From assembly GCA_947179485.1 (NCBI GenBank), contig OX359250.1, positions 40,048,600 to 40,112,599 on the forward strand: 64,000 nt of DNA, written 5' to 3'. Positions 2,975 to 64,000 of the stretch are shown one piece after another. Below the pieces are notes generated by a model. The model saw nothing but the letters and a program-made list of their open reading frames with translations, had not been told where the DNA came from and did no database searches. The first letter of the stretch is position 1, and each line of letters opens with the position of its first letter. The translations under genes were made by a program, and so were the position numbers. The stretch is from Allacma fusca (lineage: Eukaryota; Arthropoda; Collembola; Symphypleona; Sminthuridae).

Positions 2975-3183
2975 ACACTCTCCATACACACAACTCATCA
3001 AGACAAACAAAAAAAAATCTGACATGTCACAGACGTTGATTGAAATGTGGGATCCCCCAGAAATGCATACGAAGAAAAATGGGCTCACAAAAAACAACTT
3101 ACTATATGGTTATGTTCATCCCCTTGGAGAAATCCAACTTGGGCAACGACGATAAGAAAAACAATAGTCCGAATTTGGCTCAT
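1..3183 (-). CDS. TM9SF3: TM9SF3-type transmembrane 9 superfamily protein (nonaspanin), 5' part, runs off window start
   Basis: Four coding exons on the minus strand, 3103-3183, 431-626, 218-340 and <1-131, join in phase with GT-AG introns: donors GTAAGTTG, GTATTATT and GTGAGTTT; acceptors ATTTCAG, TTAACAG and TTGATAG. Exon 1 encodes a 27-residue start with a hydrophobic signal peptide ([15 protein letters not shown]..., then DEHNHI). Exon 2 opens [19 protein letters not shown] and contains YFSLQFC and [12 protein letters not shown]. Exon 3 has [17 protein letters not shown]. Exon 4 has GEYYLY and NRIVDVN. These are hallmark luminal-domain motifs of TM9SF3-type nonaspanins, nine-pass membrane proteins of the Golgi/endosome involved in trafficking. 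Only about the first 175 residues are here; the transmembrane bundle lies beyond position 1. The start at 3183 is supported by the signal peptide and by the DEHxH segment that follows cleavage in the family. The family assignment is strong. The paralogue (3 rather than 1, 2 or 4) is inferred from motif similarity recalled, not from a search. Confidence 0.93.
627..3102 (-). other. Intron 1 of the TM9SF3-type gene
   Basis: The intron has a GTAAGTTG donor right after the signal-peptide exon and an ATTTGATATTTCAG acceptor before YHDNEEV. It is 2,476 bp and phase 0. It contains a pure (AC)n array at 2927-2969 and a C-run near 2509-2520. I see no nested gene. The short open frames inside it have no recognisable domain. 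Confidence 0.85.
2927..2969. repeat. (AC)n microsatellite in TM9SF3 intron 1
   Basis: Uninterrupted AC dinucleotides over 43 bp, followed by a short imperfect ACACAC tail. It lies about 130 bp downstream of the intron's donor. Confidence 0.97.
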
Positions 3184-3599: not shown

Positions 3600-4870
3600 T
3601 GTGGGATTTTACCAATTTTAAATTCCCAAGGATATCAACCCCGTCGTCTCATTCCTACACTCTGCACATATCCTATCATGCTTGGACAGACAATACAATA
3701 TGCGCTAGTGGAACAAGGGCCAGCCTCCAGCTCACGGTTCCATTCACAGTTCCTCTGAAACGAAACCTCATCCGCACACAAGAACGCTACAAGCTATCTT
3801 TCCATAGTGTGGCCAACCTCTTACAAGGAAATGTCACGGGGTGTCTCAAGGCTGGAACTCATCCTCAGGATTTTTAATTTGCTTCTTCTGCTCCGAACAT
3901 ATCCGATATCATGTCCTGTCTTAAGAGAGAGGTTTTTTGTTTGCTGGAAGAACTTTAGGTACTGTCCTTAAGAAGGGGTGTAGGATTTTTGTAGGAACAT
4001 TGGGAGCAGCGCTCCCAGGGATTTTAGTTTTTCAGGGATTCTTATGAGGGTGAAGGCTTGATTGGAAAAACTGATTGGGATTTTTGAAATCGTTAAACGT
4101 TTTTTGGGGGGAAATGGGGGATTTCCGTCATACTTATCATAGGCAGATTTTCAGAATCAAAATCTTGGGATCTTCTTAGTATCCTCAAAATCAAAATCTC
4201 GGGGATCTTTTGAGGATTCTCAAAGGCTATTAATAAAATTAAAAATCCTATAATATCTTTAATGGTCAAAAATGGATGAAATGGAATTTTACCAGTATTT
4301 GAGGAATTTCCTAAAGGGTTATCAAAATCTTAGGGACCATAAAAGGTAACAAAAGGATTCTATTGGTACGACAACCAAGGATGTTCACAATCAGTAACCT
4401 TTTTTTAAGCCTTCTATTTTTGTAGGGCAAAAGATTTTCTAACTTGTTGAAATATTTCTACAAGGGATGCTACTAAGTCCATAGAAATTGGAAATTTGTG
4501 TTCCATGGCTCAATACAAAAATCCAACCCCTGCCCTTTAGCATTTGATATAAATAATGGGTTAAAAAGCATTGGTTAAAGCGTGGGTTAAAAGCATTTGA
4601 CGCAAAACTTAATAACGGAAACTCCTACCGCTAAAAAGAGCACCCTAATAATTATTGAGTGTCGGCATCCGTGGGGTACTCCCAGCTCATATATTTTAAT
4701 AAGAAGCTAGGAAATCCTCTGAGACAGTTCTTATTAATACTAGATACTCATTTCGGGCTTGACCAAACCAGGTACTTGGTCAGTCTCCCTCCACCCAAAG
4801 TCTTCCAGTTAACCAGCTATAGACCCTAAAGCCTACGAATAGTGACCTACCCATACCCCAGGGTGACTAC
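3600..4870. other. Intergenic stretch upstream of the TM9SF3-type gene, no gene seen
   Basis: About 1.3 kb of AT-rich DNA. It includes a patch near 4140-4330 in which AATC/AAAATCTTGGGATCTT-like words recur imperfectly, suggesting a decayed repeat. A 92-codon plus-strand frame at 3599-3877 has no recognised domain and no supporting splice context. Confidence 0.6.
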
Positions 4871-4872
4871 CC

Positions 4873-5210
4873 CTACAAGGGATGCTAATGATCTGGTCCG
4901 GACCATTTATAATGGTCCGTTATTGGTCTAGTGCGGTCTGATCCAACACTTGGACCAGACCAGATACAATTGGTCCAGCTTCAGGACCAGACCAGACCAA
5001 ACCACAGGACCATGGTCCTAAAAGCATGCCAAATAAAAATGTATGAAGTAACGAAATCCCATGGAACAAATTAAAAAGGTCATTTCTGGTGTTAAAAAAC
5101 GAATTATTACGCTGTAAAAAAGATTGTTTAATTGCTCTCAATGGTATTCTGGACCAGACCAGTTTTACAAAATCTGGATCAGACCAACCATTGGCATCAC
5201 TAGACCCCTA
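4873..5210. mobile_element. GGTCC-rich inverted-repeat element, MITE-like, non-autonomous
   Basis: The segment has imperfect inverted ends: GATGCTAATGATCTGGTCC near 4881 on the plus strand and GATGCCAATGGTTGGTCTG when the region ending near 5199 is read on the minus strand. Internally it has three direct copies of GGACCAGACCAG (4952-4963, 4984-4995, 5151-5162) and perfect palindromes GGTCCGGACC (4895-4904) and AGGACCATGGTCCT (5006-5019). There is no coding capacity. The CAAGGGATGC start resembles hAT-type termini, but I could not fix exact ends or a target duplication, so the superfamily is unknown. Confidence 0.5.
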
Positions 5211-13000: not shown

Positions 13001-13002
13001 TA
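12997..13002. repeat. Target-site duplication, left copy (TAAATA)
   Basis: TAAATA immediately precedes the CCCG terminus and is matched exactly by TAAATA at 17800-17805 after the CGGG terminus. A shorter 2-bp TA duplication also fits. A 3-, 4- or 5-bp duplication does not. Confidence 0.75.
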
Positions 13003-13014
13003 CCCGATGGGAAA
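13003..13014 (+). repeat. Terminal inverted repeat, left
   Basis: CCCGATGGGAAA. It is the exact reverse complement of 17788-17799. Beyond 12 bp the two ends diverge. Each end then shows a TGGTCA word followed within 10 bp by GACGTT, at different distances from the terminus. Confidence 0.95.
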
Positions 13015-13028
13015 AAATGGTCACAGAG

Positions 13029-13194
13029 ACGTTGCGCTACCGTCAAATAATTACGTTATAAGGTCACAGCAACGTTATGTTTGGACGTTTGTGGCACGTA
13101 AAAATGTCCGCGGCGGAGACGTCCATACAACGACGCTCAACCTCGTTGAGTGGACGTGAGGTTATAACGGTGGTGTAACGTTAAGTAATTACGT
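13029..13194. promoter_or_regulatory. Subterminal ACGT-core repeat array, left end
   Basis: Nine ACGT cores in 166 bp, starting at 13029, 13053, 13072, 13085, 13096, 13119, 13154, 13178 and 13191, where fewer than one is expected by chance. Contexts are mostly GACGTT, AACGTTA, GGACGT and TTACGT. This is the kind of subterminal cluster a transposon-encoded DNA-binding protein uses to bring the ends together. The role is inferred from CACTA elements in plants, not shown here. Confidence 0.8.
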
Positions 13195-13363
13195 CCTGAA
13201 GACTATATATGGCATTGCTGTTTGATAACTAAATAAGTGCATGCAGAAAATAAACAATTTACATTGCGTTTAAATTTTTTTTAATTGATCAAATCAAAAT
13301 GTCAACGCATTGCACTTTGGTATTAATTTATTAATACAATTAAATTTTTCTTAAAAATTATTA

Positions 13364-13369
13364 TTTATT
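13364..13369 (-). terminator. Poly(A) signal AATAAA for the DUF4806-type transcript
   Basis: AATAAA on the minus strand, 87 bp after the DUF4806 stop codon and within AT-rich DNA. It is the first good signal downstream of the terminal exon. Confidence 0.65.
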
Positions 13370-13455
13370 GAATTTGTGTTCCGCGTTTCAAAAGACCCAG
13401 AGATAGTAATACGTAATATTTACGGGGAAATACAAATACACATGAATAACACATT

Positions 13456-15209
13456 TCAATTCCCTTCGTGCACGTCCAGCATCAAATCTAAATTCTTTTC
13501 CCCACGAATCCTTCCCTTGGCATGTTTAAGCCAATATTTAATTGCCTCTTCGATCTCCTTGTCAGTACCCTTGCCACCACTAGTCTTTCTAACGGAACCT
13601 ATAAACGAATTAAATTTTTTAAGACAAGTAGAAAGGTCTCACTTAACATGTTGTAGTAGTAGGTAGTTGCTAACGAGAATTTATTGTATGGTTCTATTTT
13701 TTGTTGTATTATTGAATACAAATTATATATGCACTTACAGATGACAAGATTAATAATTCTCTTGTAAATGTGAAATGGATATTTTGTTGGGCGGTTTTTA
13801 TATTGAGTACCTTTCCAATTGTACAAACTTGCAAAGCAGTCAGTAAATATACGGGCTAGGATCCTCTCTGTGGCTTCCTTTATCGACGTGCCTCCAACTT
13901 TTGAAAGAATAGCGGACTGAAATAATAAATAAGTATTTACCAAACTTACAATTGAATTAAAAACTCAAAATTATTGTCTATTTTCTAGAACGTGTAAGTG
14001 CGTTGTTTGCATTGTGGGGTTACAAATGAGTTTTAATTGATTACGTTACCACATATTGATTTCCTACAACTAAAACAACACTGGGACCCATTGCGTTTAA
14101 ACTGATTGCAGTTTCAAACTTGTCTGAGTAACTATAGTTATATGTACAGCTACTTACCAAATGTTCCAGCGATCCATCTTGGATTAAGAACAGTTCAAAT
14201 TGTTTTAGCTGATCTTCCGATTCAATCGGCAATTTGGGACAGTCCGTAATTCCTTCAGCAACATCGACTGTTGTTGTGGCTTTGAGACTTCTCACGTCCA
14301 ATGCCAACTGATCAACTTTCGAAATTAATATCCTGACTTTTTTCAGAATTTCCTTTTGAATTTCTGAAAATTCAAATGTTTGTTATTGTACAAGTAACGT
14401 GAAAAATAAGCAACAAATAACCATCCATATCACCAATAAAACATGTAAAAACAAATTAAATCCAACATTTAATACCTAATGTGATATTTTGCATTTCCGC
14501 TGTACCTAATCCACCCTCTGATGATTTTGTCTGACTTTCATTTTGAATATCCCGTACATGTAGAGGTTCCGAATTTATATATTCGAAATGTGGAATCATA
14601 CTAGTAGAAGAAGATGTGGAAGGTACTGCAATGCTTGGAGCAGATGGTAAATTCCCGGTTGCTTTTATATTTTTACGGCATACTTCAGGACTTGATTCGA
14701 TTTCGGAGCTACTTGAGTCTACGGTACTGTTTCCCAGTGTATTCATAGGTTTATTGGTTTCAGCACGTTTGCCCTCATCAACTGAGGATTCGATTTCCGA
14801 CTGACAAATGAATACATCTCGTTTCCTGCGAACCTCCTGAAGGTCATCTGAAGAATATATAATTTTTATTCAATGCAGGGTTGTCTTTTCTTCAACTCAT
14901 TGAATTTAACCCAAAATCGCAATGAAAAATGGAATAAGTATTTACAATATTTAATTTCACTATATTAATTAACTTTATTAGTGAATTTGGAGGTAGTAGG
15001 TACTTACTAGAGACAAACTTTACAATTACGGAATACTTTTTCCATTTAGGTCCTGGCTTAGCAGTATTTTTGAAAGCGGAAAAGTATCGGGTATTTCCTG
15101 GCCAGTCACATTGAGTCTGCTCCGTATTTAGCCAAGAAAAGTGAATAATTTCGCAGGGAGTTGTTCCGTCTTTGGACTTATTTTCCAAAAATTCAACTAA
15201 TGCGAACAT
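13456..15209 (-). CDS. Transposon accessory protein with C-terminal DUF4806-type domain (366 aa, five coding exons, intact)
   Basis: Exons 15008-15209, 14476-14847, 14158-14363, 13739-13916 and 13456-13598 join in frame without a stop. Donors are GTAAGTA, GTATTAA, GTAAGTAG and GTAAGTGC; acceptors all end in CAG or TAG after T-rich tracts. Residues 1-67 form a small N-terminal module (MFALVEFLE, W26, CDWP at 34-37, PGPKWKKY around 52-59). Residues 68-190 are Ser/Glu-rich and probably disordered. Residues 195-215 (ILKKVRILISKVDQLALDV) look helical. Residues 236-345 carry the DUF4806 pattern: LPIESEDQLKQFE, VGGTS at 267-271, NWKG at 293-296, then a basic tail KYWLKHAKGRIRGEKN. The family is of unknown function and often occurs beside transposases. 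By position I infer a role in binding the subterminal repeats. The start at 15209 follows the acceptor directly, with A at -3, and matches the usual family start. Confidence 0.85.
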
Positions 15210-15220
15210 CTGAAAATACA

Positions 15221-17324
15221 TTAAAAACTTGCTTTGTACTCATTTTTAGCATGGCATAGTGGCAATAAAGTTAGTTTTGTGTTGGGCACGGGCATCACTT
15301 TAATAACGTCTGATTGCAGTGGAATATGTTCAATAGCAGAATTAATTTTTTCAATTGTTACAATTCCAAGTTTAGAGGACTCAATCGGGTATGTGAAAAC
15401 GTCGGAGGTTTTACAAATTTTTTGTACAGCAAATATTATCTTTTCTTTCATTTGTAAAATATTTCTTATTTTATATTTTACACCACCACTTTCACAATAA
15501 CAGTTTCGTTTGCTGATTGAAAATACTCCGGCAGAGCAAGAAACGTTTCTGAACTGACGAGCATCTTTATATGCCGGTGAACATGGACCAAGGTTATGCT
15601 CAAACTTAAGCACAGGCTTATCAAACGACGGTTGTTCTTGTGGTATCATTTCCTTTTCTTCGATGCGACGATGCAACTGCTGAATCGGATGGTGGTTTGC
15701 GCGGATAAGTCTTTTGATGTATCCCAAATGTGATTCGAAAGGAAAGGAACTGAAGCTTTCTAGGGGTCCGTGTCTTTTACAATCGTCTGCCAGATGAAAA
15801 ATATTGTGCACATTGAACACCATTTCGTTCTCACCGTATAATTTGCAATAATGTCTGGCCCAACTTTGCAAAATAGTATTTGCAAAATCATACTTGGAGC
15901 TGTCCGAGCCATTCAATATTCGAATTCCGACACTCAGTAGCACGAAATTATCGTAGACAGGTTTTTGTAAAATTCCTTTCAAAATGACGGGACCCGTGTA
16001 CAACAGAAACTGCCGTAGTTCTGAAGCTTTCCATATTCCGACCATTCACCGAATATCTCGTGGAGTTCGCTGGAATTCAGAAGGAACATAAGGAACACAA
16101 TCGGACAGTTTTTTTAGAAATAAGGGCTACTACTGCCGACGGTATTCTTGTTTTAATGGGACCCTTCAGCCATAACTTCAATACTCTCTTCGTTACCCCG
16201 ATGTACACTAAGTGCATTGGGTCTAGTGGTATTTGGGAGATCATGCCTATTCCCAATATCTCCAATGGCGTCTTTTCTGTATCGAATGGATACGAATGAT
16301 GATCCTCGAACTGACGATTGTTGAAATTTTGATCTGTCCGAAGTTCTGAATCAAAATTGGGGAAGGTTATTTTTCCATTCCATTTACCCTTAGTACTGCA
16401 ACGTTCGCAGGCGTGATATCCTGTATGTCCAACAATAGCTTTGATGAATGCCCTAGCAGGGCTATCGGCGATAAAAATACACTTACTTAAATTAATTGAA
16501 AACGAAATCCCTTCAGCAGTAATACCATTTGATACTAAATCTCTTAGGTCTGTAATAAATTTTTGAAGGTAGTCGTAAACACTTTTGGGTTTCGATTTAC
16601 CCACGAACGCTCCAACAATAAACGGCGTCTGATCTTTACACTCTCGCAGTATTGCTAAAATGGGCCAGCAACATTGATTAGAGCTGTTGTATAGAGGAAC
16701 TCCATCAATATGAAATTTTAGAGAAATTAACTGATTTGTTGATGATTGAAGACCCGCTGAAATTCTACGAGAGAGTCCTTTGCCTATTCCACGGTAATAC
16801 ATATTTCCAGATTGAATCCTGTCCATTGAAGTTGATTTCTCAGTTTTTAAAAGAGTTTTTGCTGCTTTTGGAAGCTGGGGAAAATACTCATTTAAAATTG
16901 TAAGCAGTTTTCCCAGAGCCGTGTGCGTTATATTTTCCTTCAGACTCCACTTTTGTAGCTGGGATTTTAATTTTTCTGTGACGGTATGACCATTTACATT
17001 GTCTTCGTCGCAGTTCCCCTCGCTGCAACTACCACTAAAATCTGATTCATTTGGACAATTGACGTCCATGTAGACAAATCTATTTGTTTCGGAGTCTTCG
17101 TCAAGGTCGAGCTCTGAGTATTGTTGTAGCCCTTGATTTTCTTGTAAATCCACTTCCGTCAGATTGCTGGTCCATGGAAGGAGATTTGGTGAAGTAGAAA
17201 TGTTCTCAGTTACTTTTGGGGCACTATACTTATTTTTAGTTTCGTTGAAAGAAGCTAAGAATTTATTAACTTCCTGTTCAGCTCTCCTTCGTAATTGCCT
17301 TACACCCACTCTTTTGCCAGACAT
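15221..17324 (-). pseudogene. CACTA/Tnp2-like DDE transposase, one frameshift and one nonsense codon
   Basis: The first open part (17324-16077, 415 codons) holds the catalytic core: D207 in FHIDGVPLY, D287 in FIADSPAR, the zinc-knuckle-like C306xxC309 in YHACERC, and D368/H371 in LDPMHLVYIGV. The second part (16045-15221, 274 codons) holds KASELRQFLLYTGP, VHNIFHLADD and FPFESHLG, whose glutamate is my candidate third acidic residue. It ends in a C-terminal domain typical of animal members. Start to stop is 2,101 coding bases plus the TAA, that is 3x700+1, consistent with a single extra base. That base lies in the A7 run (T7 at 16109-16115 on the plus strand). Past it, the correct frame meets TGA at 16046-16048. 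The protein would have cut and joined DNA at the element ends. As it stands it is truncated after the second and third motif blocks and should be inactive. Confidence 0.9.
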
Positions 17325-17416
17325 TTTAATTACACTTAAATCACTTTAATTTTGATTATAATTTTCAAACTCAAAACGTACCAGACAATTCTTTCCAATT
17401 AGACGATTTAACTTAC

Positions 17417-17540
17417 CTTAATGTTTTAGCCCAAGGAGCATGAAATGGCGTTGGGTAGAGTGGCTACAATTTGTGGAAATGTTTCTAGCTTAAGTTTAGC
17501 AAGTACTATTACAACGCTCCCATGGTCCTCGTGAAACTCA
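17417..17540 (-). promoter_or_regulatory. Candidate non-coding leader exon and promoter region of the transposon
   Basis: A consensus donor (ATTAAG|GTAAGTTA) ends a candidate exon at 17417, 93 bp upstream of the transposase ATG. The exon has two tiny upstream frames (4 and 7 codons) and no long ORF. The next strong acceptor that would make sense for the accessory protein is at 15210 (TATTTTCAG|ATG). I see no TATA box, and the upstream limit of 17540 is arbitrary. Confidence 0.5.
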
Positions 17541-17588
17541 ATTCTGAATGCGCATGTGTAACATCTTGACCGTGCTCGTCAAAATTTG

Positions 17589-17772
17589 ACGTTGTACGAA
17601 CGTTTGAATTTGGCGTTATTTATGAACGTCTGGCCGACGTTCTTACGATGATTATTAATTGACGTTAAAGATCTGACGTCACTTCGACGGTCAAACATGG
17701 TAAATATTTGACGTTGTAAATTCTATTAACGTCAGCTAACGTCCGATAACGTCACTGACCAATTTCTGACGT
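17589..17772. promoter_or_regulatory. Subterminal ACGT-core repeat array, right end
   Basis: Eleven ACGT cores in 184 bp, starting at 17589, 17600, 17626, 17637, 17662, 17676, 17711, 17729, 17739, 17749 and 17769. Many fit TGACGTTA or its reverse TAACGTCA, and TTGACGTTGTA occurs twice (17587, 17709). Several neighbours are 10-11 bp apart, about one helical turn. The array overlaps the likely promoter side of the element, so the same protein could also affect transcription, as TnpA does in plant Spm. That function is inferred. Confidence 0.82.
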
Positions 17773-17787
17773 TATATTAACGAAGTG

Positions 17788-17799
17788 TTTCCCATCGGG
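17788..17799 (-). repeat. Terminal inverted repeat, right
   Basis: TTTCCCATCGGG. It is the reverse complement of the left terminus. Confidence 0.95.
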
Positions 17800-17805
17800 T
17801 AAATA
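17800..17805. repeat. Target-site duplication, right copy (TAAATA)
   Basis: Matches 12997-13002 exactly. With one copy removed, the empty site reads through the palindrome into ACATTTCATC. Confidence 0.75.
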
Positions 17806-35754: not shown

Positions 35755-35842
<88 letters not shown>

Positions 35843-35844
35843 TC
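35755..35844. repeat. (CT)n microsatellite, about 90 bp, longest in the window
   Basis: CT dinucleotides, pure until a CCCTCT near the right end. Confidence 0.97.

Positions 35845-62164: not shown

Positions 62165-62224
<60 letters not shown>
62165..62224. repeat. (GT)n microsatellite, 60 bp, longest GT array in the window
   Basis: A pure GT run, followed by GGTGTTGGTG and a second short GT run to about 62254. Confidence 0.97.
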
Positions 62225-62225
<1 letters not shown>

Positions 62226-64000
62226 TGTTGGTGTGTGTTTGTGTGTGTGTGTGTAAAATAATACAGGGAAGTGTATTTTTGGTACGATGTATGTACGATG
62301 CAATTTCGCATCGTCGAAACTCTATGCAATTCTTGACGCTGTCTATACTTATATGTATTTCCCTTTCAGGATATAGTCCATTAGTCTCCCGTGGGCTGGG
62401 GTTTTAAGAAAGAGAGAATGAGCGTGTATTCACTTTTTTATCTTTAAAAAAAAAACAAACTTGTATTGTGAGTATTAACATGGCGTTGTTGGCATCGCAT
62501 GAGGAAATTGCTCTCCTGTCTTCAGAAATGTAATGTTATCAAAGGATTTGACTAAATCCTTCAACCCTATCATGGTCTAGATTCAAAGCATAGAATATAA
62601 TTTTGTAAAGAGTGATTGCCCCTGCTGGAATTATACTATGAGTATATTATAGATACTTATATATCTAAATATATAGATATGTAATTACGTACATGTAGGT
62701 AAAATGTATACATATTTGTATAATAAAAGGAAAGGAAATAATCTCTCTCCCAGAGACACCCATGAAATAGTAACGAGCTACTTTTTACTCCCATTTATAG
62801 ATATAACCATTAGAATTGTATAGAGGTAGGATTCATATAACATAGGATTATAGGGATATAATAATATTAACGATCTATAGATAGGTAGATACATTTGGGT
62901 ATAGTACATATCTATTATCTATAGAAAGGAGTTCCAGTATGTGAAGCTCCTATCCCTTCTCATGTGAAGCATCATATCATAAGTTATTTATATGCCGGTG
63001 GATTTTGGGAGATGAAAGAAAATCTATACTATTCAAGGAAACTTTAGAACTGAAATTTCTCCTCTAGTTGATTATGGGAGGGAGGAAATTAAAGGAAACT
63101 TATTTATTCTTTGTAATGTTTCTCTCTCTCTCTCTCTCTCTCTCATCTCCTTCCTACCGACTCACTCCTCTGCATACTTATTACTTGAGTGAATCGACGC
63201 ATCTATCTCTGGTTTACATAGTGGAGGGGGGGGGAGGAGGAAATCCATCAGTCAAGGAGCTTTTTCGTAATTATTATTTATATAGGGAAATTACGCATTG
63301 TCTATATACCATCATCACCAGGGGAATCAACGATAGTTACAAGAGGTAGATACGGATCTAGTGTGTGAGCAACGTTTCAAGTCTTATTATTTTTAGGTCT
63401 TAAAAGTAACTGCGATTCATATTTTACTGGGAGGAAGATGAGGGAGGAGGAGTAGACTCGAAGGAGGAAGGGAATCTCGATGTCCGAAGGTATAATCTAG
63501 TCTAGGAGTAGATATACGTAGATATGTAATTATATCTATGTGTAGAGCCTCTGGGATCATAGAAGATCGGATGAAAAGGGAAATTGACGGGCATGGGATT
63601 CTTGTCATTGTCATTCCTTGGGTCCGTTTGATCATGAGGAAGTTACGAGATGGAGACTAGAGTCCCGGGTCTCAGAATATATGTATGGACGAGGGAGATT
63701 ATCCTTTGGTGGGGAAATCTCTGTATAGATCCTATCCACTGGGAAGTGTCCATATAAGACAAAATAAAATGAGTGGAAGGGAGGAGGGAGGGAGGGAGGG
63801 ATTCATGTACATACATAGCTATAGCTCATCAAAATTTACTACTTTCCCTCACTAGGGAATAAAAAGTGTGGGCAAATGTGGGACTCGGGAGTGTATCTAG
63901 GATCTTATTATCCTTTCTTTCTGGATTTCCTTAACCCATTGTAAATATTGTACGTAAATAGGTACAATTAATTTCTGACACTATGTGGATAATTATACAT

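Follow-up and report, generated by a model that had tools for sequence, protein, structure and literature searches.

Introduction

Animal transposons with termini beginning in CCC and 2-bp target-site duplications were published in 2006 as 'TRC' elements of Schistosoma, Tribolium and Aedes (DeMarco et al. 2006, PMC1636069), and Hydra is represented by an element whose terminus reads CCCAGCC (PMC4298943). The element described here is therefore of a type already on record, and the CCC ends, which the initial annotation of this DNA had expected to give the family a boundary and a name, are familiar from animal TRC (PMC1636069, PMC4298943). With SmTRC1 and the other animal TRC elements it shares terminal repeats starting with CCC, 2-bp duplications and a tnp2-type transposase, and with SmTRC1, an element type of about 4.5 kb, a second spliced product encoded downstream of the transposase (PMC1636069). 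Unlike those found here, however, the terminal repeats of SmTRC1 are 54 bp long and those of the insect TRC elements read CCCTAGTAGC... and CCCAGTCAAC. The second TRC product is reported not to be detectably conserved, whereas here it is the product of a DUF4806 gene; DUF4806 was not found in the available parts of that account (PMC1636069). Spongebob_HMa / EnSpm-4N1_HM of Hydra, filed as TRC, likewise has a CCC terminus (CCCAGCCAACATTGAC) and 2-bp duplications and measures 5,836 bp, but it ends in a different terminal sequence and is said to have a transposase that has not been resolved (PMC4298943).

Plant En/Spm and Tgmt* elements of the CACTA type resemble the present element in encoding a tnp2 transposase and a second product, which in plants binds DNA, and in their family-specific subterminal repeats; their defective copies moved in trans and their alternative splicing match what is probable here (PMC2613891). 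In TNPA-type systems the family-specific subterminal motifs go together with a partner protein (PMC2613891). The plant elements differ in their CACTA termini and, in Tgmt*, a 3-bp duplication, and their DNA-binding proteins show little similarity from one element to another (PMC2613891). Fungal ESTA, compared by its description only, has a CMCT-group transposase signature and TA duplications as here, but is reported from fungi and carries a TET/JBP gene in the described families (PMC12730594).

Among the papers listed by a literature search, which covers few subscription journals, none linked DUF4806 to CACTA or CMC transposons, and none paired it with EnSpm; the association may already have been published in another place. 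Abundant CMC transposons are described in the Hydra genome paper, as are 69 and 54 DUF4806 genes in two Hydra species, and the part of it that we could consult draws no link between the two (PMC7642931). DUF4806 has also been reported as an enriched domain of unknown function (PMC13270666). Here we describe a two-gene DNA transposon of the Tnp2 type in an animal genome; its copies, termini and gene content uphold that reading of the locus.

Results

The element and its copies

The window, a 64-kb stretch of DNA, contains two exact occurrences of the 12-bp sequence CCCGATGGGAAA, at 13003-13014 on the plus strand and at 17788-17799 on the minus strand. The element that they bound spans 13003-17799 (4,797 bp), and both of its genes lie on the minus strand, running from the right end to the left end. 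The termini, CCC...GGG, are neither the plant-type CACTA terminus nor the 5'-CA..TG-3' ends that are said to hold mostly, not always, for the CMC group. Outside the transposon, the window has no stop-to-stop frame longer than 155 aa. Neither a tRNA nor an Rfam match above the gathering score was found in the window, and long CT and TG microsatellites lie at 35756-35844 and 62165-62254.

The host genome (392.7 Mb, 91 contigs) has the marks of an arthropod: all 150 scored matches (of 236 candidates) to Chitin_bind_4, a cuticle-protein domain typical of that group, lie above its cut-off. It was searched with two probes, the last 380 bases of the element and its first 258. Both retrieved the same four full-length copies, including that of the window; the other three, L013, L014 and L015, are 99.98, 98.8 and 90.7% identical to it (1, 58 and 442 mismatches over the element, gaps omitted). 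Similarity among the copies begins at the left terminal repeat and stops at the right one, extending beyond them only over a shared TA in three of the four copies. The 12-bp inverted ends and the boundaries at 13003 and 17799 are thus confirmed: three more full-length copies with these ends exist, and, save for the shared TA, homology does not run past either position. Internally deleted copies had been predicted as well, but the two end probes gave only the four full-length copies and no shorter member of the family genome-wide.

The exact CCCGATGGGAAA sequence occurs at 66 sites in the genome, whereas its reversed control gives 23. Eighteen of the 66 make up nine pairs that face inward across 4.8-6.8 kb; the excess and the pairs together exceed what chance would give. 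The surroundings were read at 51 of the 66 sites. Four of these (L029, L031, L033 and L034, at position 3001) have identical surroundings and so belong to another repeat rather than to transposon ends; a reverse-transcriptase-like motif was noticed in that repeat by eye.

Related families in the same genome

Two further groups were compared with the window family. The P1 family, with a transposase about 50% identical to that of the window, comprises two copies on contigs C1 and C8 that are 99.6-100% identical in their end pieces, end in CCCGATGAGG and have TA on both sides; like CCCGATGGGAAA, CCCGATGAGG starts with CCC, as do the terminal repeats of animal TRC. The P1-type terminus pattern was found at six sites and its reversed control at three, which is no clear numerical excess. 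Two of the six are P1 ends, three lie elsewhere, and the remaining one, C10:38415183, is where the end of a third two-gene element is expected, 0.8 kb beyond its DUF4806 exon.

Group B (L016-L021) consists of six longer elements with the same 12-bp CCCGATGGGAAA ends. Their transposases are 24-29% identical to the N-terminal piece of the window transposase and 28-35% to the C-terminal piece where this was matched, so that the ends are kept despite distant transposases and differing subterminal motifs. No match to the gene-2 pieces of the window was found in group B, and DUF4806 was absent from four other open frames of these elements. L021 contains, at 4213-4908, a long tandem repeat of CIPPTYHQHT-like units.

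Target-site duplications and unoccupied sites

The sequence TAAATA adjoins both outer edges of the element in the window, where the initial annotation had noted it as matched flanks. Comparison of the flanks points to a target duplication of 2 bp, not of the whole TAAATA. In 10 of 12 elements examined, drawn from the three groups, the flanks agree over 2 bp: TA in seven (window, L013, L014, both P1 copies, L020 and L021) and GT (L015), AA (L016) and AT (L019) in one each. All four copies of the window family thus have the 2-bp duplication of animal TRC. Were the 12 elements of three groups independent, the chance of at least ten such matches would be about 1.5e-10. The two exceptions are L018, which has no flank duplication, and L017, which, unlike the others, has a 3-bp duplication, CGC, backed by an unoccupied site.

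Unoccupied sites were sought with joined flanks, 40 matches being scored out of 790 candidates in one search and 40 out of 464 in another. The joined P1-C8 flanks matched at least 40 places (the best 40 of 790 candidates), at identities of 91-98% through the junction. In alignments of five unoccupied sites, taking out two bases gives the best fit for three of them, P1-C8, L019 and L020, elements of other families for which the unoccupied sites therefore support 2 bp; for L015 two bases are barely preferred (277 versus 275 for none), and for L017 three are preferred. For the window copy, L013 and L014, no unoccupied site was present among the matches listed (the best 40 of 790 and of 464).

A 6-bp TAAATA duplication was rejected, as the flanks of L013, L014 and L015 agree over no more than 2 bp. 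The flank matches, together with the unoccupied sites of relatives, lead us to read TAAATA as a TA duplication within an AT-rich site, in which only the TA at 13001-13002 and 17800-17801, found as TA in two further copies and as GT in the fourth, is the likely duplication.

Structure of the two genes

The transposase gene of the window occupies two open pieces on the minus strand. The N-terminal piece (17345-16077; first ATG of the frame at 17323, as read from the sequence) holds both D residues and the C(2)C motif, and the C-terminal piece (16045-15221) holds H(3)H and the final E. A weak DUF4218 match in the latter (E 0.0014), below the cut-off, was the only Pfam match of the transposase. 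Between the pieces, at 16047-16109, the gene is broken twice: its frame changes near 16109, and a stop codon interrupts it near 16047. Both defects are common to L013 and absent from L014, where the transposase is a single stop-free frame of 706 aa. Because its transposase frame is broken, the window copy is not the complete transposon that it had been called.

Gene 2, also on the minus strand, consists of five exons at 15008-15221, 14476-14847, 14158-14363, 13811-13916 and 13456-13598, the fourth carrying the DUF4806 match and the last the stop codon. Its introns are of the GT-AG type and its joined product is an open frame of 346 aa, which scores 27.4 bits against Pfam DUF4806 (cut-off 25); the best single piece reaches 21.6 bits, below the cut-off. 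The spliced gene of the DUF4806 type that had been proposed at this position is thereby borne out.

The second ATG in the first coding exon of gene 2, which is codon 5 of the frame as read here, has an acceptor-like TTTTCAG in front of it. CAG touches the gene-2 ATG in 8 of 17 sequences compared; in eight others AG lies 2-17 bases upstream, a distance at which AG is common by chance, so that an acceptor is only weakly indicated unless CAG adjoins the ATG; L061 has CAA. Upstream of the transposase ATG, a candidate splice donor, AAGGTAAGT (17411-17419, minus strand), includes a GTAAGT site preserved in L014 and L015. Together, the CAG before the gene-2 ATG and the upstream donor suggest alternative splicing, as in En/Spm and SmTRC1 (PMC1636069), and such splicing, from a leader exon that precedes the transposase, is probably how gene 2 is made.

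The regions next to the ends are rich in the ACGT core. The left subterminal region (13003-13302) contains 9 (shuffled mean 1.06) and the right one (17420-17799) contains 11 (shuffled mean 1.39), numbers reached in none of 2000 shuffles for either region. The P1 ends carry the core too, with 14 in 493 bp and 5 in 184 bp (raw counts). The group B ends have 0-2 ACGT per 400 bp and instead contain TGCAT/ATGCA at 5-9 per 400 bp.

Gene 2 is a conserved partner of the transposase

At least 99 relatives of the transposase exist in the genome (99 scored of 1,151 candidates). The Pfam DUF4806 model found a single exon genome-wide at E up to 0.001, on C8, downstream of a listed transposase; gene-2 pieces of the window itself were therefore used as probes. 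The first-exon piece (14892-15239) gave at least 105 matches (150 scored of 173 candidates) and the DUF4806 piece (13811-13964) at least 48 (150 scored of 217 candidates). A gene-2 first exon lies within 4 kb of 67 of the 99 scored transposase matches, where chance would place about 0.002 per match, and all 67 lie downstream on the same strand, 773-1,912 bp from the transposase. The partner is present at 57 of the best 60 transposase matches and at 10 of the other 39. Conversely, a same-strand transposase lies no more than 5 kb upstream of 39 of the 48 DUF4806-piece matches, a count based on near neighbours (39 of the 99 transposase matches and 4 of the 105 gene-2 matches) that can only be too low, and four of the remaining nine adjoin a gene-2 first exon. 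Gene 2 is thus a conserved partner of the transposase.

Gene 2 might instead have been picked up from the host, or be carried along, without any part in transposition, but in our judgement this is unlikely. DUF4806 is a domain without known function, no gene 2 was detected near 32 of the 99 transposase matches (29 of them among the 39 weakest, where divergence or true absence may be the cause), and none was seen in the six group B elements in spite of their identical ends, all of which such an origin would accommodate. However, the same place and orientation are kept at the 67 loci, 57 of the best 60 matches among them, even though the proteins differ widely, and in the window copy gene 2 has stayed open while gene 1 is broken. 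A TNPA-like, end-binding role for gene 2 fits this pattern and the subterminal motifs.

Affiliation of the transposase

L014, L020 and, across its two pieces, the window protein have D, D, C(2)C, H(3)H and E in succession. This is the arrangement of a CMC-group DDE transposase, in which C(2)C and H(3-4)H stand after the second D and before the last E, and published examples of it come from EnSpm, Mirage, Chapaev and Transib (PMC12730594). L014 and L020 gave no direct match to Transposase_21 (PF02992) at E up to 10, and the window pieces none at E up to 1. Genome-wide, Transposase_21 was matched 28 times, in no case by one of the 99 listed relatives. An intermediate protein of the genome, L076, scores 43.4 bits as Transposase_21 (cut-off 28.6) and is 54% identical to L020, 48% to L021 and 27% to L014 over 124 aa, and through it the group is linked to tnp2. 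Searches of solved structures gave no credible match and NCBIfam none, and structure prediction without an alignment yielded unusable models (mean pLDDT 33.6 and 54.8). Viral contigs, searched with both transposase pieces and with alignment A1, yielded no relatives.

A lineage separate from EnSpm/TRC, whether Mirage, Chapaev or one that duplicates TA like fungal ESTA, would agree with the predominance of TA duplications and with CCC termini in place of the 5'-CA..TG-3' usual for the group (PMC12730594). Yet GT, AA and AT are also used as duplications, CCC ends with 2-bp duplications and tnp2 are the published marks of animal TRC (PMC1636069), and L076 provides the Transposase_21 connection, so we regard such a separate lineage as quite improbable.

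Recent movement of the window element

The window copy and L013 differ at 1 base in 4,797 and share both transposase defects, which indicates that an already broken element was copied recently. A segmental duplication or an assembly error, rather than transposition, could also produce a near-identical pair with the same transposase break on one contig, C9. The flanks already contradict this: the two copies are about 2 Mb apart, in opposite orientation and between unrelated flanks, and on both sides their similarity stops at the TA and the terminal repeats, leaving such an event very little probability. The small size of the window family, only four copies, might suggest host domestication of the locus or repeats that came together by chance. 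The copies already contradict this: exact ends and 2-bp duplications recur at four sites, two copies differ at a single base in 4,797, and the window transposase frame is broken. Such an origin has a negligible chance of being right. The unit at 13003-17799 is a genuine, recently moved transposon, and the shared break makes it likely that the transposase which moved it acted in trans, from another source.

Discussion

We consider it highly probable that the element is a cut-and-paste transposon of the CMC group and of the animal TRC type, and that its two genes act as follows. The DDE transposase of gene 1, judged by its predicted catalytic residues, would cut at CCCGATGGGAAA and insert the element at 2-bp sites, mostly TA. 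The DUF4806 protein of gene 2, presumably expressed by alternative splicing from the leader exon, would most likely recognise the ACGT-rich motifs near the ends and assist in pairing these ends, as TNPA does in En/Spm. The window copy, being defective in gene 1, would depend on transposase supplied from another copy. Some observations speak against this account, namely the lack of a direct Transposase_21 match, the 32 of 99 transposase matches without gene 2, the aberrant duplications of L018 and L017, and the group B ends without ACGT clusters.

For a diverse animal CACTA-like lineage, with at least 99 relatives in one genome, these results provide exact ends, 2-bp duplications and unoccupied sites. 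The less expected aspect is the partnership with DUF4806, which ties an unassigned Pfam domain to transposition. In a broader view, DUF4806 proteins could be the TNPA-like, end-binding partner throughout a large animal CACTA-like lineage, in which family-specific subterminal motifs would evolve together with both proteins, and the DUF4806 gene expansions reported from Hydra and an ambrosia beetle could be largely transposon copies; we hold the chances for and against this view to be evenly balanced. Since gene 2 travels with the transposase in dozens of related elements, such genes may be parts of transposons rather than host genes, and papers that report DUF4806 enrichment (PMC13270666, PMC7642931) may, as far as their available parts show, be counting transposon genes.
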